Assembly: GCA_030654175.1 (NCBI GenBank)
Contig: JAURXZ010000001.1
Coordinates: forward strand, 186,001 to 250,000
DNA: 64,000 nt
Source: Bacteroidia bacterium
Lineage (GTDB): Bacteria; Bacteroidota; Bacteroidia; 2-12-FULL-35-15
Reading direction: 5' to 3'
This document shows, in pieces, positions 48,542 to 60,830 of the stretch. The notes beneath the pieces are model-generated. The model was not told where the DNA came from and made no database searches. It worked only from the letters and a program-made list of their open reading frames with translations. The translations under genes were made by a program, and so were the position numbers. Position 1 is the stretch's first letter; each line of letters starts with the position of its first letter.

Positions 48542-48754
48542 GCTGTTTTATTTAAAAATATTTGTTAAAAGTATACAGGCATTTCAGCCTTTATTTTCGA
48601 TTTTCGTTCAACTGGCTTTTATTAAAGACAAAAATTATAGACTTGAAATTGTCAGTCGGTTTATTGTTTTGGGTTACCAAAAAATTTATTTCAGATAGGA
48701 TCAAAACTCTTTTTCATTGATAAACATTAAAGATGAATATAAGTGAGAATTAAT

Positions 48755-48784
48755 TTGTTAATTCCTTGAATTTCAATATCTTTA
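48755..48784 (+). promoter_or_regulatory. Promoter of the SpoIID-like gene
   Basis: TTG at 48755-48757, 19 nt, then TATCTTTA, followed by CTAA. The same TATCTTTACTAA occurs before the amidase gene at 51410. The TTG start codon is only 17 nt downstream. Confidence 0.6.
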
Positions 48785-48800
48785 CTAAAAAACAAACCCT

Positions 48801-51092
48801 TTGAAAAAACAAACTACCCACTATTATTTTGTAGGTTTTCTATTCAGCAGTATCCTGTTTCATTCTTTGGGTCTATTCTCACAGGAAGGCACTAGAGGTA
48901 CTCTCTCCTTTTTTGTATCCGATGCTGAAAATGGCTATGGAACTCCAGCGGAAATTTTATTCAGCAATGAAAAAAAATCCTTTCGTTTAAAAACCAACGA
49001 AGGCGGGCATCTTTTGTTTGAAGGAGAAAAGGGGAACTATAATATACAGATATGGGCAAATGGCCACCACCCTCTATCCACTTATTTTATTGTAAAAAAC
49101 GGACAATCCCTGAACATCAATATTATAATGGACAGGGTGAATAAAACGCATGTTGAATTCAAGAAATATGAATCGGCAGTGGTGGAAGGTTATGTGGTGG
49201 ATTTTGAAACCGGCAAGCCTATTGGGGATGTGAATGTTGAACTATCGGCTGAAAAGCGTTCTGCCAGGACAAATAAAGAAGGATTTTTTTCAGTTAGTCC
49301 AAGTCGTTTTGCTGCCATTACAAAACGCGAAGATAAAGGGATACGAAGTGATGTTTCATTTAACCTGAAAGGTTATACTTCAAAAACAATCGAAGATCTA
49401 TTGCTGCTTCCTGATAAGATAAAATTAAAAATTGTACTTAAAAAGGGGAGTGGCAATGATTCAGAAAAATATTTTCAGCATATTTTGGATGGAACAGCAC
49501 AAGATGTTGAGATGTACGAAAAATCTATTCCTCAAAGTAATTCGCAAAAAACGAAAACAGATTTTAAATTATCTGCAACCGGATGTGTAATACCCACAAC
49601 CATTCGGGTTGGTACCGGTTGCTCGTGCACAAGTTGTACTGGAGTAGATGTAATGAGTTTGCAATATTATTCTGAGAGTGGCATTGATGATGAATGGATC
49701 TCGAGCTGGCAATTTGAATCATTGGCAGCCGGTTCGGTACCTTACAGAAGCTATGGAGGCTGGTACGTCAATAATCCTGTAAATGCAAATTTTGATATTG
49801 CATCTTCCACTTGTAACCAGGTATGGGGCTCAGCAGTATATACAAATGCGCAAAGTGCAGCACAGGCTACTGTTGGACAAATTGTAACTGCAAATGGTAT
49901 AGATCCGGCACGGTCGGAATATTCAGCGGAAAATAATCAGGGAGGAACTTCGTTTAATTGCACTGATTGCAATGCCGGTGGGAGTGGAGCTTATAGTTGC
50001 TTTTCGGATAACCAATGTTGCGGACAAAGTCCTGCAGGGCATGGAAGAGGCATGTGTCAGTGGGGGACACAGTATTGGGCGCAAAACGGACAAAATAGTC
50101 AATGGATAATTGACCATTATTTTATTGCAACTATTGGTTATTCGATCTGTGGTTCCAGTATACCACCCTCCAACCTTTCAGTGACAAGTTCCAGCTGTCC
50201 GCAAATTGGGGTTACTCTTAACTGGAACGATTCAGGAGCGGGATGGATGTTGGATGTTTCTGCAGATAGCAATTTTGCTACCTATTATAATAAGAGTATT
50301 GCAAATCTTAATTCGATTGTATGTCCGGGAGGATTTTGTGATTACCCGGGTTGTACGAACTACTTGCAGTTTGCACCGGGAACTACTTATTACTGGAGAA
50401 TATGGGATGGCAGCGGTCATGTAACCGGTTCATCCTTCACTACGCCAATTTGCAGCACATTAGATACTAACTGTGCAGGTAATATTGATGATTCAGGTGG
50501 AATAAACGGTGGTTACAGTGGCAACGAGGATTATACATATACGATCTCTCCACCAAATGTAAGTTCTTTGTCGTTCAATTTTTCAAGTTTTGATCTGGAA
50601 TCAAATTTCGATTCCTTGTATTTATATGATGGGCCGTCAACGTCCTCACCTCTTATTGGCGCATATACCGGATCGAATTCACCCGGAACATTTTCTTCCA
50701 CCGGAGGATCGATCACCTTGCATTTTATTTCGGATCCATTGGTAAATAATGCCGGTTTTTCTGCAACTTGGACCTGTATAAGTGCCCCCACCGGGATAGA
50801 TAATCCTGGAAATAACTTGTCGTTAGTAAAAATTTATCCAAATCCGGCCAACGGTGATGCGTACCTTCATTATGTATTGTCTAATCCTGGAATGGTTACT
50901 ATCAAACTTTTTGATGTTCTTGGGCATGAAATTAGCGTGTTAAACAATGGTTTCCAATCCGCTGGCGACCATACTTTACATATTGATATAAATGAATTGG
51001 CTTTATCAGAAGGGATTTACACGATACGTTTTATAAGTGCAGATGATCACTCAACAAATATCAAATTAATATTTACAACACCCGAAAGATGA
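48801..51092 (+). CDS. T9SS-secreted SpoIID-like lytic transglycosylase with CUB domain
   Basis: 763 residues from a TTG codon; a signal peptide begins immediately (MKKQTTHYYFVGFLFSSILFHSLGLFSQ). Two carboxypeptidase-regulatory-like domains follow (residues about 32-120 and 125-215). The SpoIID-type domain spans about 255-455: the conserved glutamate is E298 in IDDEW, with SSWQFESLAAGSVPYRSYG and the late signature GHGRGMCQWG. Then come an FnIII-like module, a CUB domain (about 553-655) and a T9SS sorting domain (about 680-763). SpoIID cleaves peptide-free glycan strands in Bacillus. Its neighbour is an amidase. Confidence 0.8.
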   Translation: MKKQTTHYYFVGFLFSSILFHSLGLFSQEGTRGTLSFFVSDAENGYGTPAEILFSNEKKSFRLKTNEGGHLLFEGEKGNYNIQIWANGHHPLSTYFIVKNGQSLNINIIMDRVNKTHVEFKKYESAVVEGYVVDFETGKPIGDVNVELSAEKRSARTNKEGFFSVSPSRFAAITKREDKGIRSDVSFNLKGYTSKTIEDLLLLPDKIKLKIVLKKGSGNDSEKYFQHILDGTAQDVEMYEKSIPQSNSQKTKTDFKLSATGCVIPTTIRVGTGCSCTSCTGVDVMSLQYYSESGIDDEWISSWQFESLAAGSVPYRSYGGWYVNNPVNANFDIASSTCNQVWGSAVYTNAQSAAQATVGQIVTANGIDPARSEYSAENNQGGTSFNCTDCNAGGSGAYSCFSDNQCCGQSPAGHGRGMCQWGTQYWAQNGQNSQWIIDHYFIATIGYSICGSSIPPSNLSVTSSSCPQIGVTLNWNDSGAGWMLDVSADSNFATYYNKSIANLNSIVCPGGFCDYPGCTNYLQFAPGTTYYWRIWDGSGHVTGSSFTTPICSTLDTNCAGNIDDSGGINGGYSGNEDYTYTISPPNVSSLSFNFSSFDLESNFDSLYLYDGPSTSSPLIGAYTGSNSPGTFSSTGGSITLHFISDPLVNNAGFSATWTCISAPTGIDNPGNNLSLVKIYPNPANGDAYLHYVLSNPGMVTIKLFDVLGHEISVLNNGFQSAGDHTLHIDINELALSEGIYTIRFISADDHSTNIKLIFTTPER

Positions 51093-51394
51093 AAAAAATT
51101 ACTTTCATAATCTCTTTAATTTGTTTTTCAATAATTAAAACATTTTCACAAACAGGCATAGGACTTGATTGTAATCAGCCCATTGACCCTGCCACCGGAG
51201 CAATACAAGCAAATGCAACTTTTGCAGTGGTAGGTACAACCTGTGTGCCATGGGTACGTTTGAATTTCATTTTGGGACCATGGTCATCACCTTCGGACCA
51301 AACATTACACAGTGGAAAAACATGGAAACAAACCTATGATGAAATTGTGAATGGCTTTACCAATCAAGGTGGTATGAATACTTTAATTGCTTAA
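51089..51394 (+). pseudogene. Truncated exported glycosidase fragment
   Basis: 101 residues. A signal peptide (MKKITFIISLICFSIIKTFSQ) leads to GLDCNQPIDPATGAIQANATFAVVGTTCVPWVRLNFILGPWSSP and WKQTYDEIVNGFTNQG, the start of a barrel-type glycosidase. It then ends abruptly in GMNTLIA. A functional barrel would need several hundred more residues, and no continuation is found downstream in any frame. The ATG overlaps the stop of the SpoIID-like gene (ATGA), so it may still be translated by coupling. It is either a decayed gene or a small leftover. Confidence 0.55.
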
Positions 51395-51417
51395 ATAAAT
51401 TAGAATAATTATCTTTA
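51387..51417 (+). promoter_or_regulatory. Promoter of the amidase gene
   Basis: TTG at 51387-51389, 20 nt, then TATCTTTA at 51410-51417, followed by CTAA. Almost identical to the promoter of the SpoIID-like gene, consistent with joint control. Confidence 0.55.
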
Positions 51418-51448
51418 CTAATCAATTAACCACTTAACAAAATAAAGG

Positions 51449-54400
51449 ATGAAAAAATCATTACTTGTTGTTGCATTTACATTTTTATTCTCTACCTGCT
51501 ATTGCTTCGGACAAAGCAATTATGCTGATGTAGTTGTTTTAAATAACTATACTCAATCGTTTAATAAAGCCTATCAGAATCATCCTGAAATTCCGAAGGG
51601 GATTTTAGAAGCGGTTGCATTTTGCAATACCCATTTTAAGCATATTCAGCATGCTTCTTCTCAATCAGAAAGTTGCAGTGGCATACCTAATACGTATGGT
51701 GTTATGGGGTTAACTCTTGATGGACAAAATTATTTCAGCAATAATCTTGCATTGGTTTCAAATTTATCAGGATATAAAACGGATGAAATTATCAGTGATC
51801 CTGAAAAAAATATCTTAGGGTATGCCGATGCTTACGCAGCTATTAAGAATTCTTTGAACATCACAAGCAATTCTATTGCTGATCAAATGCCTGTGTTGGC
51901 TAATTTAAGCGAGTTGCCTGAGGAAACAAAAGGGCAAAATTTTGCACTTAACACACAATTGTATGGTTATTTACAATTTTTAGACAATGTTAATTATCAG
52001 CAATTATATGATTTCCCGAATCATAAAATTGATTTCACCGCTATTTTTGGTGCCACTAATTATGCTGTTTTGAGTTCAACAGGAGTAACGGTAACTGATG
52101 AAAGTGTTTATAATAAAAGCGGTCAGCAATATCAGGCTAAATCACTTCAATCAACTGAATATGGCCCTGCAATTTGGAATCCAACTACCTGTAATTATAG
52201 TTCACGCAGCGGGACAGCAATTTCGGCAATCACAATTCATACCGTTCAGGGAAGTTATGCAGGTTGTATTTCATGGTTTAAAAACTGTTCTGCTAATGCC
52301 TCTACGCACTATGTGGTTCGCTCCTCTGACGGCCAGATCACTCAAATGCTTATAGAAGCAGAAAAAGGATGGCATGTGGGTTCTGAAAACCCCTATACGA
52401 TTGGTTATGAGCATGAGGGGTTTGTGGATGACGCATCCTGGTATACTACTGCCATGTATAATAGTTCTGCCGATCTATCAAGAGATATTACTCAAAGTGG
52501 ATATGGAATAAACCCATTAAGAACATACTACGGACCGGGATGTTCCGGAGGTTCATCATCATGCGGCTTGGGAGCTTGTACAAAAATAAAGGGACATCAA
52601 ATGTACCCGAATCAGTCTCATAGTGATCCGGGACCAAACTGGAACTGGGCAAGATACTATTTGCTTATTAACAATAATCCTACTATAACTACTGTTACCG
52701 GTGGTGCGGGAAATTCATACGATAGCGGTGGTGCCGGAAATAATTATGCTGATGATGAACGAACTCTTACTTTAATTCAACCATCGGGTGCAACTTCTAT
52801 CACTCTTAATTTTACATCGTTTGATACAGAATTAAATTGGGATCACTTATTTATTTATGATGGTGCTACTACCGCAGCTCCGCTTATTGGAAAATATTCA
52901 GGTACAACCGGTCCCGGTACTATTACATCAAATGGCGGTGCCTTATTACTTGAATTCCGTTCGGATTGTAATACTACTTCTACAGGTTGGGCAGCAAGCT
53001 GGACAAGCAATGCAGTACCTCCGCCACAAGCAGACGTTACGGCTCCAACCACTACTATAAGCACTCCTAACGCATGGGAAACAACCAATTTTACAGCGAA
53101 TTTTACAGATGCCGATGAAACGGGAGGTAGTGGATTAGAAAAAAGTTACTACCAGGTGATTGATTATGATGGCACTGAATGGCGGGCAAATGCAAACAAT
53201 GGTTTTTTTGCTGACAATTTTGATCTTGCCATTCATCCTGATTGGACTAGCGCGGTTGGAACATGGAGCATTAATGGTGGATCATTGTTTCAGGCAGATG
53301 AAGGATCGAGCAATACCAATATTTATGCAACCTTGGATCAAACATTGTCGAACAGATATTTGTATAATTTTTATGGCAAAATTGATGGTTCAGGAACAAC
53401 CAAGCGTGCAGGTTTTCATTTCTTTGCTGACAATGGAAGCCTTACCAATCGGGGGAATTCATACTTTGTCTGGTTCCGTGTAGATGATGCGTTGTTGCAG
53501 GTTTACAAAGTTGTAAATGATGTTTTTGGAACTGCTGAAATTAGTATTCCATTTACTACTGTTGCCAATCAATGGTATGATTATAAAATTATTTACGATC
53601 GTATAAGCGGTAAAATCAGCATTTACAGGGATAATCAATTTATTACCAGCTGGACCGACCCTTCACCGATCTCTTCCGGAAATGCGATCTCATTCCGTAG
53701 CGGAAATGCAAATTTTGCTATCAATGAATTAAAAGTATATCGTTCCCGTGCAGCAGCTTCTGCAGCTATTACAGTGGGACCAGCAATAACAAATGATATC
53801 CGCTTCCAAAATCCGGATCCTACTACCTGTTCCGGTAAAATAAAATCCATTTGTGCTGATTCGGCTGGAAATTTATCGGCTATTTTTTATCAGAATATCA
53901 ATGTGGATTGGACCCCCCCATCGGCTGTTAGTACTATTAATGATGGTACAGGAGCCGACATCAGTGTTACTGCTTCATTAACGGATCTATCGGCCAACTG
54001 GACTGCATCAACTGATCCTAATTCTGCAATTTCACGCTATTGGTATGCGATAGGAACAACACCCGGGGCAACCAATATTGTTAACTATACTGATAATTGG
54101 TTTAACCAGGCAGTTACTGCAACAGGGTTAAGTTCAGTGGTTGGGCAAATGTATTATTTTTCTGTAAAGGCAGAAGATGGGGCAGGTTTGCAATCAACTG
54201 TAATTACCAGCAATGGACAAACTGTTCTGTTAACTTCAATTGATGAGCAAATTGCGGCAAACGGGTTATCTGTTTATCCGAACCCGTTTACGAATAACAC
54301 AACAATCACTTATCAGTTAAATAGTACTTCAAAAGTAGATATTACTTTAACTGATGTATTGGGTAAAGTAATTGTTTTGTATGCTAATTCGGATCAGGCT

Positions 54401-54517
54401 TCCGGTAAACATGAAGTTTTAATAAATTCGGCTGATCTGCAACTTGCAAAAGGAATGTATTTTGTGAAATTGGAAACTAATATGGGAAGAAACTTTGTAA
54501 AAGTTATTGTTAAGTAG
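51449..54517 (+). CDS. T9SS-secreted N-acetylmuramoyl-L-alanine amidase (Amidase_2) with CUB domain
   Basis: 1022 residues, signal peptide ending CFGQS. The Amidase_2 domain spans residues about 255-405. Zinc ligands by spacing are H264 (ITIHTVQG), H383 (KGHQMYPN) and D393 (SDPGP); the H-to-D distance of ten matches AmpD. A GYEHEG motif with a glutamate lies between. A CUB domain (about 410-525), a LamG-like domain (about 590-770), an FnIII-like domain and a T9SS sorting domain follow. It should strip peptides from murein outside the cell, producing substrate for the SpoIID-like neighbour. Confidence 0.87.
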   Translation: MKKSLLVVAFTFLFSTCYCFGQSNYADVVVLNNYTQSFNKAYQNHPEIPKGILEAVAFCNTHFKHIQHASSQSESCSGIPNTYGVMGLTLDGQNYFSNNLALVSNLSGYKTDEIISDPEKNILGYADAYAAIKNSLNITSNSIADQMPVLANLSELPEETKGQNFALNTQLYGYLQFLDNVNYQQLYDFPNHKIDFTAIFGATNYAVLSSTGVTVTDESVYNKSGQQYQAKSLQSTEYGPAIWNPTTCNYSSRSGTAISAITIHTVQGSYAGCISWFKNCSANASTHYVVRSSDGQITQMLIEAEKGWHVGSENPYTIGYEHEGFVDDASWYTTAMYNSSADLSRDITQSGYGINPLRTYYGPGCSGGSSSCGLGACTKIKGHQMYPNQSHSDPGPNWNWARYYLLINNNPTITTVTGGAGNSYDSGGAGNNYADDERTLTLIQPSGATSITLNFTSFDTELNWDHLFIYDGATTAAPLIGKYSGTTGPGTITSNGGALLLEFRSDCNTTSTGWAASWTSNAVPPPQADVTAPTTTISTPNAWETTNFTANFTDADETGGSGLEKSYYQVIDYDGTEWRANANNGFFADNFDLAIHPDWTSAVGTWSINGGSLFQADEGSSNTNIYATLDQTLSNRYLYNFYGKIDGSGTTKRAGFHFFADNGSLTNRGNSYFVWFRVDDALLQVYKVVNDVFGTAEISIPFTTVANQWYDYKIIYDRISGKISIYRDNQFITSWTDPSPISSGNAISFRSGNANFAINELKVYRSRAAASAAITVGPAITNDIRFQNPDPTTCSGKIKSICADSAGNLSAIFYQNINVDWTPPSAVSTINDGTGADISVTASLTDLSANWTASTDPNSAISRYWYAIGTTPGATNIVNYTDNWFNQAVTATGLSSVVGQMYYFSVKAEDGAGLQSTVITSNGQTVLLTSIDEQIAANGLSVYPNPFTNNTTITYQLNSTSKVDITLTDVLGKVIVLYANSDQASGKHEVLINSADLQLAKGMYFVKLETNMGRNFVKVIVK

Positions 54518-56474: not shown

Positions 56475-59400
56475 ATGAAGACAATGAAAAAAACATTACA
56501 ATTCGGCTTTTTAGCATTGAGTTTATTATTTTCTCTAACTAGTGCAAAATCACAAACAATTTCAAACGATTTTTTTGGAGTGAATGCGTGGATGCCCGAC
56601 ACCATTGGAAATTATTTTGCCTGTCCGGAAGCCCCCTGTTATTTTAATGGCAAATTGCATAAGAACTGGCAAAAAGTTAAAGCCAGTGGTGCTACTATTG
56701 TTCGTTTTGGAGGAATCAGCGCTGATAGAAACAGGCCAACAAATTTTCAATACATCCGAATGATCGATTCCATTCGTGCAAATGGTATGGAGCCAATAAT
56801 TCAAGTTCCATTTTTTAACAATCGTTATACAGCCCAGCAGGCGGCTGATATTGTGCGGTACATAAATGTTGTTAAAGGAAAGAATATTAAGTACTGGATC
56901 ATTGGAAATGAACCTAATTTAAGTTACTCCTATACCACTGCGGCACAGGTAGCAAGCTATTTTAAACCCTTTGCATCTGCTATGAAAAATGTGGATCCAT
57001 CCATACTTATTATCGGGCCTGAACCTGCGTGGTATGATCAAAATATTATTAATGGTTTAACCACTCCCGGTGGAGCTAGTGATATTACCGGTAAAGATGG
57101 AGCCGGCAGATACTATTTGGATATACTTTCTTTTCATACCTATCCTTTTAATGGAACACAAACAAGATCACAGGTTGTTTCAAAATTAACTTCTGCAGGC
57201 TCTTTGAAGGATAATTTAGCTGCGCTTAATTCCAGGTTAGCAGCAGCTAATTCGTATCATGGCAGAACAGGATCATCCGCATTAAAAACTGCTATAACAG
57301 AGGCTAACATCGATTATAAGAATTCCAGCACCGATAATTTAAATGGAGTAGGAGCTAATAGTTTTATTGGTGGACAGTTTGTTGCTGAAATGATGAGCGT
57401 TGGAATGAAAAATGGTTTGGACTTTTTTAATTTATGGAGTGTGATTGAAGGAAACTCAACTGCACTCAATATTGGTTTTTTAGATAATTCAACCGGTAAC
57501 AAAAAACCTTTGTATTATCATTTCAAGTTACTTGCTGATAATTTCAGAGGGAATTATGTGAATGGGACCACTAATCAGGTAAACGTAAAATCGTTTGCAT
57601 GTCAGGATGGTCAACAGGTTGCGGTAATGATCCTAAATGAGGATATGACCAACAATTTTACTTATACTGTTAGGTTAAATACCACTGCAATAGCAGGAAC
57701 CAGTGCTTTAAAAATTAATGCAAATGCAGGATTAGCCAAAGAGTTTACCGATGTTATTCAAAATCAGTCAACCACTTTGTTATTGTTTGATGCTAGCGGA
57801 AATATTATTAAAAAAAGTGAATATAAACTTTCAGGAAATGCAAATTTAAATCTTCCTCCTACAGTTACTGTTTTATCTTCTTCTCAAACGGCAACAATTA
57901 CTCCTGCAGGGCCAACCAACTTTTGTGCAGGTGGAAGCGTAATGTTGAATGCTAATACAGGCAGTGGATATACCTACCAATGGAAAAAGGATAATGTAGC
58001 GATAAGCGGAGCTACTAATTCATCGTATACAACAACCGCTTCAGGAAGTTATTCAGTGGCTATAACAATTGCGGGAGTCACCAATATATCTTCAGCAATA
58101 ACAATTACAGTAAGTCCCATGCCTATTGCAACAGTGACACCTGCTGGCTCAACTTCATTTGCTACCGGTGGTAATGTAGTATTAAATGCGAGTACAGGAA
58201 CCGGATATATTTATCAATGGAAAAAAGATAATATAAATATTACTGGCGCTACGGGTGCGTCCTATACTGCTTCAACAGCAGGGGCCTACCAAGTAGCAAT
58301 TAACCAGGGAATATGCAGTGCTTTATCTGCAGCTGTGGTAATTACGGTCATATCAAGTTCTGCGGTGATCACTCCTGCCGGTCCCACAACATTTTGTGCA
58401 GGAGGAAGTGTAACGTTGAATGCAAATACGGGTACTGGAAATACTTACCAATGGAAAAAAGATAATATTGCTATAAGCGGAGCGAATGGTTCAGCCTATA
58501 TAGCAACAGTATCCGGCAGTTATACAGTAGCAATAACTGCTTCAGGAATTACCAGTACATCTTCGGCAGTGATCATAACTGTTTCACCAATGCCAACTGC
58601 GACAATAACTCCTGCCGGGCCAACATCTTTTGTTGCCGGAGGTAGTGTGATACTTAATGCCCCAACGGGAACAGGGTATATATATCAGTGGAAAAAAGAT
58701 GGTGCGGTTATTACCGGTGCAACCAATTCATCCTATACTGCTTCTGTAGCAGGCTCCTATCAAATAAAAATCACACAGGGCTCCTGTATTGATTGGTCTG
58801 CTCCACTTGCAATTACTATTCTTACAACTACAGCAACAATCACTGCTTCAGGTTCTACCAGCTTTTGTGCAGGGGGCAGTGTAACGTTGAATGCAAATAC
58901 TGGAACAGGATATACATATCAGTGGAAAAAAGATAATGTTGCTATAAGTGGAGCTACTAATCCATCTTATGTTGCAACCTTATCAGGAAGTTATTCGGTT
59001 TCTATAACTATTGCAGGAGTGAGTAATATATCATCAGCAATTATGATTACTGCAAGTCCTGTTCCGGCTGCAATAATTACTCCTGCAGGAGCATTATCAT
59101 TTGCTGCAGGTGGTAATGTAGTATTAAATGCGGGCACAGGAACAGGATATACTTACCAATGGAAAAAAGACAGTGTAGCAATTGCCGGAGCTACCAATGC
59201 ATCCTATACAGCATCAACAGCGGGAAGCTATCAGGTAGAAATTAATCAGGGAATATGCAGTGCCGTCTCAGCAGCTGTGGTAATATCTATCCTGCCTACA
59301 GCAATAATCTCTCCGGCAGGACCTACTACATTTTGTGCAGGAGGTAGTGTTACATTAAATGCCAATACAGGTACCGGAAATACTTATCAATGGAAAAAAG

Positions 59401-60830
59401 ATAATATTGCTATAAGCGGAGCAAACGGTTCGTACTACATAGCTACACTATCCGGTAGTTATACTGTAGCTATAACTACATCTGGAATTACAGGGACATC
59501 TGCCGCTGTTGTTATTACTGTTTTGCCAATGCCAAGCGCAACAATAACTCCTGCCGGAGCATTATCCTTTGTTGCCGGAGATAGTGCAGTGTTAAATGCA
59601 AGTACAGGAACGGGATATATTTATCAGTGGAAAAAAGACAATATAGGTATTACAGGTGCTACAAATGCATCCTATACAGCTTTTACAGCCGGTTCTTATC
59701 AAATAAAAATTACACAGGGTTCCTGCACAGATTGGTCTGCCCCGATATTTATTACTATCCTGCCAACAGCAACAATAACTCCTGCCGGACCAACCAATGT
59801 TTGTGCAGGAGGAAGCGTAACCTTAAATGCGACAACCGGTATAGGATACACTTACCAGTGGAAAAAGGATAATATCGATTTAAGCGGAGCAACCAACTCA
59901 TCCTACATTGCAACGGCAACCGGAAATTATTCAGTTGTTGTAACCTCCGGAGGTTTAATAAATACATCGGCTTCCCTTACAGTTACTGTTATGCCGGTTC
60001 CATTGGCAACAATTACCCCTTTAGGTGCTACAACAATGTGTTCAGGTTCGGTAGGTTTACAAGCGAATGCAGGTTCGGGGTTAATTTATCAATGGATAAA
60101 AGATAATAATATAATTGCGGGAGCCACCAATTCTCTATATTCAGCTTCTGCAACAGGATCTTACCAGGTGAAAATTACGCAGGGGGCATGTAAAGCTTTA
60201 TCAGTTCCCACATCAGTGAAGATTCAAAGCGGACTGTTTGCATCCATTACCCCTGGAGGCCCTACTACATTCTGTTCAGGAGGGAAGGTAATATTATATG
60301 CAAGTACATGTTCAGGTTATAATTATCAATGGAAAAAAGATGGCTCAAATATATCCGGAGCAACATCTTCAACCTATACTGCATCGGTTTCCGGAAAGTA
60401 TCAGGTAAGGATTGCTAAAAATGGAGTAAAAGACTGGTCAGCATTATTAGCGGTAACAGTAAATAATTGTAAAGAGCTTGATATAATTGCAAGCAAAGAA
60501 CCATTAACAGATTCGGCTAATGATTTATCTATTATTTCTTCAATAACAAATTATGGAATGGTAACAGAAAGTAATCTTGAAATAAATATATTTCCAAACC
60601 CTACAAATGGAAATTATTTTATTGAATTGGAAAATGAGAATTCTGAAGAAAATAATTTTGAGATTGTCGTTACTAATACGATCGGTCAAACGATCTATCA
60701 CAAATATTCCACTTTCTCTGCTAAAAAGGAAGAAATAAGGTTTTCTGAAAATGATCCGGGAGGTATTTATATAGTGAATGTAAAGGCAAAAAATAAAATT
60801 GCGACTAAAAAAATTATCTTTAATAAATAA
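56475..60830 (+). CDS. T9SS-secreted clan GH-A glycosidase with 11 Ig-like repeats
   Basis: 1451 residues. Signal peptide (MKKTLQFGFLALSLLFSLTSAKSQ; ATG at 56475 or 56484). Catalytic barrel, residues about 30-370: GATIVRFGG, acid/base E146 in GNEPN, nucleophile candidate E276 in TAITEANIDYK. A beta-sandwich follows to about 460. Eleven tandem Ig-like domains of about 78 residues (472-1335) share the motif YQWKKD and begin (I/V)TPAG. A T9SS sorting domain ends the protein. The likely substrate is an extracellular polysaccharide; the family number cannot be decided by eye. Confidence 0.85.
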   Translation: MKTMKKTLQFGFLALSLLFSLTSAKSQTISNDFFGVNAWMPDTIGNYFACPEAPCYFNGKLHKNWQKVKASGATIVRFGGISADRNRPTNFQYIRMIDSIRANGMEPIIQVPFFNNRYTAQQAADIVRYINVVKGKNIKYWIIGNEPNLSYSYTTAAQVASYFKPFASAMKNVDPSILIIGPEPAWYDQNIINGLTTPGGASDITGKDGAGRYYLDILSFHTYPFNGTQTRSQVVSKLTSAGSLKDNLAALNSRLAAANSYHGRTGSSALKTAITEANIDYKNSSTDNLNGVGANSFIGGQFVAEMMSVGMKNGLDFFNLWSVIEGNSTALNIGFLDNSTGNKKPLYYHFKLLADNFRGNYVNGTTNQVNVKSFACQDGQQVAVMILNEDMTNNFTYTVRLNTTAIAGTSALKINANAGLAKEFTDVIQNQSTTLLLFDASGNIIKKSEYKLSGNANLNLPPTVTVLSSSQTATITPAGPTNFCAGGSVMLNANTGSGYTYQWKKDNVAISGATNSSYTTTASGSYSVAITIAGVTNISSAITITVSPMPIATVTPAGSTSFATGGNVVLNASTGTGYIYQWKKDNINITGATGASYTASTAGAYQVAINQGICSALSAAVVITVISSSAVITPAGPTTFCAGGSVTLNANTGTGNTYQWKKDNIAISGANGSAYIATVSGSYTVAITASGITSTSSAVIITVSPMPTATITPAGPTSFVAGGSVILNAPTGTGYIYQWKKDGAVITGATNSSYTASVAGSYQIKITQGSCIDWSAPLAITILTTTATITASGSTSFCAGGSVTLNANTGTGYTYQWKKDNVAISGATNPSYVATLSGSYSVSITIAGVSNISSAIMITASPVPAAIITPAGALSFAAGGNVVLNAGTGTGYTYQWKKDSVAIAGATNASYTASTAGSYQVEINQGICSAVSAAVVISILPTAIISPAGPTTFCAGGSVTLNANTGTGNTYQWKKDNIAISGANGSYYIATLSGSYTVAITTSGITGTSAAVVITVLPMPSATITPAGALSFVAGDSAVLNASTGTGYIYQWKKDNIGITGATNASYTAFTAGSYQIKITQGSCTDWSAPIFITILPTATITPAGPTNVCAGGSVTLNATTGIGYTYQWKKDNIDLSGATNSSYIATATGNYSVVVTSGGLINTSASLTVTVMPVPLATITPLGATTMCSGSVGLQANAGSGLIYQWIKDNNIIAGATNSLYSASATGSYQVKITQGACKALSVPTSVKIQSGLFASITPGGPTTFCSGGKVILYASTCSGYNYQWKKDGSNISGATSSTYTASVSGKYQVRIAKNGVKDWSALLAVTVNNCKELDIIASKEPLTDSANDLSIISSITNYGMVTESNLEINIFPNPTNGNYFIELENENSEENNFEIVVTNTIGQTIYHKYSTFSAKKEEIRFSENDPGGIYIVNVKAKNKIATKKIIFNK
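57891..60470 (+). repeat. Tandem Ig-domain-coding repeats with four-domain super-repeat
   Basis: Eleven units of about 234 bp. Units 1-4 (from 57891) and 5-8 (from 58833) correspond in order, and unit 9 begins at 59769: spacings 942 and 936 bp. Odd units have FCAGG and lack the C-terminal Cys; even units have INQG.C or ITQG.C. A four-domain block duplicated recently. Confidence 0.85.

Follow-up and report, generated by a model that had tools for sequence, protein, structure and literature searches.

The described system closest to the genes reported here is the engulfment machinery SpoIID-SpoIIP (the DMP complex, SpoIID-SpoIIM-SpoIIP), found in Bacillus and Clostridioides. In C. difficile, SpoIID requires prior amidase action, according to PMC6221140. 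SpoIID is also present in a non-sporulating bacterium, Waddlia (Chlamydiales): According to PMC6635528, it works at the division septum of its own cell and is active on whole peptidoglycan. In Bdellovibrio, a secreted MltA-like lytic transglycosylase, Bd3285, is delivered to the wall of another bacterium; it belongs to a different enzyme family and is secreted into the prey by an invading predator (PMC10127604). Here we describe a SpoIID gene and an amidase gene which are neighbours in a stretch of 64,000 nucleotides (the window) from Bacteroidia bacterium, assembly GCA_030654175.1, contig JAURXZ010000001.1, positions 186,001 to 250,000. Both proteins end in a sorting domain of the type IX secretion system (T9SS). 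The SpoIID-amidase gene pair is confirmed as real and well supported. We consider it rather probable that the pair locally represents a modular set of exported enzymes for peptidoglycan digestion, in which a steady amidase would act first and SpoIID afterwards, with the walls or debris of other bacteria as probable targets. More is learned from the wider exported set than from the pair itself.

The coordinates are given in Table 1. The SpoIID gene, whose start codon is TTG, contains the parts claimed in a preliminary description made from the sequence alone: A SpoIID-type domain with E298 and the GHGRGMCQWG motif, a CUB domain and a T9SS signal, all present in the open reading frame (ORF) and in Pfam and NCBIfam searches. 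The Pfam score for SpoIID (PF08486) is 27.3 bits, above the cut-off of 23, and CUB, CarboxypepD_reg and Por_Secre_tail are also detected. The NCBIfam cut-off for SpoIID_LytB (TIGR02669, 83.3 bits) is missed by the whole protein (51.7 bits) and by the domain (57.4 bits). Since the domain is above one cut-off and below the other, it is a divergent member of the family. The predicted SpoIID core has a mean predicted local distance difference test score (pLDDT) of 87.1. In a fold search it matches C. difficile SpoIID 5i1t (Z 18.1, root mean square deviation (rmsd) 2.7, 169 residues aligned), SleC 9h68 (Z 16.1, rmsd 2.5, 154 aligned) and B. anthracis SpoIID 4rwr (Z 14.3, rmsd 2.8, 151 aligned). E298 aligns to chain position 101 of C. 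difficile SpoIID 5txu, and E101 is required for the activity of that enzyme according to PMC6221140. Fold and catalytic glutamate are both those of the SpoIID/LytB family.

Scanning one genome per species of GTDB 220 yielded 46 related SpoIID loci. We have aligned 38 of them with the window protein and its own paralogue, 40 rows in all. E298 is kept in every row, and also, by eye, in three further sequences; GH and RGMC, among other residues, do not vary, and the conservation of YSAEN is 90% or more. TIGR02669 matches the 40 rows at E<=0.001, even if the window protein is below the curated cut-off. The phyla represented include Bacteroidota, Chlorobiota, Acidobacteriota, Caldifarciminota, Verrucomicrobiota, Myxococcota and Pseudomonadota, and nearly all of the rows are metagenome bins. 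A CarboxypepD_reg-like domain is N-terminal to SpoIID in six of the seven proteins checked (the exception is L028), in some cases below the cut-off.

The SpoIID fold, the catalytic glutamate and the logic of an amidase combined with SpoIID are common to DMP and to the window pair. The window SpoIID has a T9SS tail, which predicts export, instead of a membrane anchor, its core is short and contains the YSAEN motif, and its neighbour is an Amidase_2 (AmpD-type) enzyme instead of SpoIIP. SleC, the lytic transglycosylase of C. difficile spore germination, has a similar fold and a similarly short core. It is, in contrast, a spore enzyme, and is not known to have a CUB domain or a T9SS tail.

The amidase gene was also well described in advance: Amidase_2 with H264, H383 and D393, CUB and a T9SS signal are found in the ORF, with Pfam and NCBIfam, and in alignments. 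The Pfam score for Amidase_2 is 74.7 bits (cut-off 26), and CUB and Por_Secre_tail are present. The model (mean pLDDT 88.3) matches AmpD 2y28/2y2c in the fold search (Z 20.1, rmsd 2.0, 148-149 aligned), and H264, H383 and D393 correspond to the metal ligands of AmpD. Curated score, fold and zinc-ligand residues are thus those of an Amidase_2 zinc amidase. Fold and metal site are shared with the AmpD/AmiD amidases; the window enzyme differs in its large size, its several domains and its T9SS tail. The same genome has six Amidase_2 matches, four of them of this exported type, and the three residues are invariant across these four. Across 38 aligned amidase rows, neither H264 nor H383 varies, and D393 is conserved in at least 90%. 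The N-terminal domain of the amidase (window 51590-52150) looked by eye like an SLT-type lysozyme; Pfam and a PDB profile search do not support this, and nearly all of the fold-search rows listed span the amidase domain alone, so they are uninformative on this point. In the same region, Asn is present in 23 of 23 close rows where Glu is found in 8 of the 14 readable distant rows.

A T9SS type A C-terminal sorting domain is above the NCBIfam cut-off of 23 bits in both the SpoIID protein (35.7) and the amidase (47.8), and the T9SS protein SprA is found in the same genome. PADLOC matched neither protein. Both would be carried outside the cell by means of their tails. As T9SS products lie outside the outer membrane of the producer, the likely targets would be the walls of other bacteria or their debris. 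These enzymes might otherwise act on the producer itself, in the remodelling or autolysis of its wall or of a biofilm matrix, as suggested by the Waddlia SpoIID, which works at the septum of the cell that makes it (PMC6635528). However, the T9SS tails direct proteins across the outer membrane, and this genome has a separate SpoIID-family gene, L001 (390 amino acids, no tail by eye), so that we find such a role very improbable.

Table 1. Features of the SpoIID-amidase locus, in window coordinates.
Feature	Position	Strand	Description
Promoter-like element, TTTG-19-TATCTTTA, upstream of SpoIID gene	48747..48795	+	Diverged (TACCTTTACAAA) at the corresponding site in relative G017
SpoIID gene	48801..51092	+	Signal peptide (by eye), CarboxypepD_reg-like N-terminus, SpoIID domain, CUB, T9SS type A tail
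SpoIID domain used for model	49581-50147	+	Contains E298 and GHGRGMCQWG
Glycosidase remnant	51089..51394	+	101-amino-acid ORF between SpoIID and amidase genes; about the first 94 codons match
Promoter-like element, TTG-20-TATCTTTA, upstream of amidase gene	51387..51421	+	12-mer identical in G017
Amidase gene	51449..54517	+	N-terminal helical domain, Amidase_2 (H264/H383/D393), CUB, shared module, T9SS type A tail
Undescribed module of about 407 residues	53033..54253	+	Residues 529-935 of window amidase; recurs on other exported wall enzymes

The exported amidase type is found in 25 of the 36 genomes of the genus, including the one described here, and SpoIID in 4 of the 36. We have read all 32 amidase loci of the genus, except for two G004 fragments, and 24 of the 32 have partner enzymes beside the amidase. 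In 16 of the 22 loci with a CUB-type amidase, a GH18 gene on the same strand lies within one gene of it. The other six are the window (SpoIID and a glycosidase stub), locus L186 of genome G017 (glycosidase) and four without a partner, two of these near a contig end and one with a decayed GH18 match beyond the amidase. The remaining amidase loci have M23, NlpC-like, GH75 or SpoIID neighbours in six of ten cases. GH18 is above the Pfam cut-off of 29.6 bits in both loci tested (120 and 117.6), and the G[VI]NIDFE motif is kept in all 16 GH18 neighbours. Strong GH18 matches (E<1e-100) are found in 20 of the 36 genomes, all 20 bearing the amidase (hypergeometric 7e-6, kinship ignored); five further genomes have weak matches alone. 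In the genome described here GH18 is on a separate contig, C34, and does not adjoin an amidase. Just past the amidase of L201 (G025), a stretch interrupted by stop codons (C9:25067-25222) gives a short match to GH18 and is perhaps a decayed partner. The preliminary description proposed a secreted wall-degrading pair. Catalytic residues, T9SS tails and SprA agree with this, but the pair would be just one version of a larger set which includes GH18, GH75, M23, NlpC-like enzymes and a glycosidase.

Many of these enzymes share the module shown in Table 1, which matches no Pfam family above cut-off and no PDB sequence; a search of viral contigs found nothing. Across the loci searched it recurs in 43 ORFs. 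An amidase, GH18, M23, NlpC-like or SpoIID domain is present in 41 of these, a count biased by the choice of loci around wall enzymes. In the whole genome described here there are seven copies, six of them on wall enzymes: three amidases (in the window, in C51 near 15 kb, and in C27), the GH18 protein of C34, and the M23 and SpoIID proteins of C27. The seventh is a C16 protein (L231 5430-9035) with PD40, Golvesin_C and a T9SS tail. By eye it is C39-peptidase-like, and its layout is similar to that of the L045 Peptidase_C39_2 protein which lies 4 bases before SpoIID.

We have searched 51 distinct SpoIID loci for amidase neighbours with a profile; many of the contigs are short. Near the distant loci the partner search combined the amidase profile with single sequences of five partner domains as queries, and L028-L059 were otherwise inspected by eye. 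An amidase is found near SpoIID in four loci: the window, contig C27 of the same genome, G027 (L019/L026) and L023. In order of transcription, the second cluster in C27 reads SpoIID-M23-amidase and G027 reads amidase-propeller-NlpC-like-GH75-SpoIID, with NlpC/P60 below the cut-off. L023 reads amidase-SpoIID, and 10 bases separate the two. The pairing recurs, then, as the preliminary description had suggested looking for, but all four loci belong to one nine-row Bacteroidota clade (99% in the Shimodaira-Hasegawa-like approximate likelihood ratio test, SH-aLRT). The idea of a re-used SpoIID domain has to be qualified likewise: Its relatives are found in several phyla, and outside this clade none was found with an amidase beside it. 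The four linked amidases occupy four positions in the amidase tree, although the L023 branch is long and unsure, so either the linkage arose more than once or the amidase has been exchanged. In the same clade, the G012 SpoIID adjoins a glycosidase and the L024 and L025 SpoIID adjoin a module-bearing protein. In L045, which is outside the SpoIID tree (its contig ends within SpoIID), the upstream neighbour is a Peptidase_C39_2/Golvesin_C/T9SS protein. The G022 contig ends 414 bases upstream of SpoIID.

Several results weigh against an exported set in which the amidase prepares the substrate of SpoIID. Presence of SpoIID is no predictor of the amidase within the genus: the amidase is present in four of four genomes with SpoIID and in 21 of 32 without; 21 of the 25 amidase-bearing genomes do not have such a SpoIID. 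As co-occurrence is uninformative, the case for the pairing rests on neighbourhood. No amidase was found beside the distant SpoIID relatives among the 51 loci, and no wall-enzyme neighbour was found for the L022 SpoIID. Only 25 of the 39 genomes holding L021-L059 have any Amidase_2 match, with none in the near-clade L024 and L025 genomes or in the L045 genome (completeness not established). In a phylum sample of 395 genomes, including the one described here, this genome and three others match nearly the whole SpoIID domain and 31 others match it partially; none of these three matches the amidase profile. The shared module is present on two of the four SpoIID proteins of the genus which were searched (C27 and G012), and absent from those of the window and G027. 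Finally, relatives of GH18 and GH75 include chitinases and chitosanases.

The link might instead come from the history of the locus and not from a joint reaction, with exported enzymes merely clustering and an exported SpoIID working alone, as the Waddlia enzyme acts on intact peptidoglycan (PMC6635528). The lack of amidase neighbours in L022 and in the more distant loci searched, and of Amidase_2 matches in the L024, L025 and L045 genomes, speaks for this. In addition, there is no amidase beside SpoIID in G012, and G017 has the same locus without SpoIID. Nevertheless, SpoIID adjoins amidases from four tree positions, and the chance that both SpoIID genes of this genome lie within 9 kb of one of its four exported amidases is about 2e-4, assuming random placement. 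On balance we regard this explanation as unlikely.

SpoIID, M23 and Amidase_2, the last with its metal site, are enzyme families of peptidoglycan. This argues against a set which digests chitin, chitosan, or fungal or algal walls and in which amidase and SpoIID have altered substrates or contribute side activities. In the PDB, the GH18 partner does match a chitinase best, and GH75 matches a viral chitosanase, but GH18 also matches YdhD 3cz8, the cortical-lytic enzyme 4s3j and YaaH 4s3k. We consider such substrates improbable.

Comparison with relatives gives some indication of how the locus was formed. The small glycosidase ORF between the two genes, absent from the preliminary description, has longer counterparts in G017 and G012; the G012 copy is a Glyco_hydro_cc protein with a T9SS tail. 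DNA identity between G017 (L186) and the window is about 85-89% over the amidase, a thiolase-like gene and the upstream genes. The G017 locus has no SpoIID and retains the longer glycosidase gene, apparently frameshifted. Orthologues of window genes 43608 (by eye a peptidyl-prolyl isomerase) and 44854 directly precede the amidase in six relatives (G015, G005, G024, G035, G016 and G002), so the window amidase is the resident gene. SpoIID and glycosidase have thus been gained or lost next to a fixed amidase. Insertion of a SpoIID block beside the amidase was also considered; it is weakened by the gene orders in G012 (SpoIID before glycosidase) and G017 (glycosidase before amidase), with which losses fit equally well. 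Elsewhere in the window, 56475-60830 codes for a protein that ends in a T9SS tail and has Ig-like matches, together with a GH5 match too weak to reach the cut-off.

The same promoter had been claimed before both genes. In fact, the 12-mer TATCTTTACTAA occurs exactly twice, at 48777 and 51410, with TTG 19-20 bases upstream of both copies; TTTG/TAnnTTTG is the promoter pattern of Bacteroidota. The similarity of the two upstream regions is equalled by 1 of 500 shuffles. With one mismatch permitted, the 12-mer has three matches, equalled by 5 of 100 shuffles, which is not significant. In the whole genome, TTG-N20-12-mer with at most one mismatch has four matches, against two for a backward control. 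None of the 15 other genes examined has the -7 element of the 12-mer (TATCTTTA) in the 120 bases before it. Looser TTG/TAnnTTTR elements precede three of those 15 (C27 M23, C27 amidase and G012 glycosidase) and 3 of 39 window upstream regions (shuffles: mean 0.33, maximum 3). The 12-mer is a plausible promoter core of both genes; co-regulation through it is suggestive only.

The exported set would work as follows. The amidase, its steady member, would strip peptides off the glycan, and SpoIID would then cleave the bared chains by lytic transglycosylase chemistry, an order suggested by SpoIID/SpoIIP. The preliminary description held that SpoIID cuts only after an amidase; this stands for C. difficile (PMC6221140) but not for Waddlia (PMC6635528), so the order is likely and not certain. 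GH75, the Glyco_hydro_cc glycosidase and SpoIID are apparently alternative or added chain cutters, with GH18 as the neighbour of the amidase in much of the genus, and M23 or NlpC-like enzymes are probably peptide cutters. More tentatively, this uncultured Bacteroidota genus might possess a parts list for extracellular murein digestion: a steady amidase, interchangeable glycan cutters (GH18, GH75, glycosidase, SpoIID), peptide cutters, and a module of about 400 residues which brings many of them to the same target. SpoIID would be an exchangeable part, and its relatives in several phyla could point to an extracellular role of a "sporulation" enzyme that has been overlooked.

Our searches of the open-licence literature in PMC brought up neither an exported SpoIID nor a comparable T9SS amidase. 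Bacteroidota are not known to form endospores. SpoIID has been studied as an enzyme of spore engulfment or of the septum; here its fold and catalytic residue are found on a protein with an export tail, beside an amidase which could prepare its substrate. If this reading is true, it would provide a testable route by which free-living Bacteroidota digest bacterial walls. It would also be a source of wall-lytic enzymes, with a marker module to find more of them.

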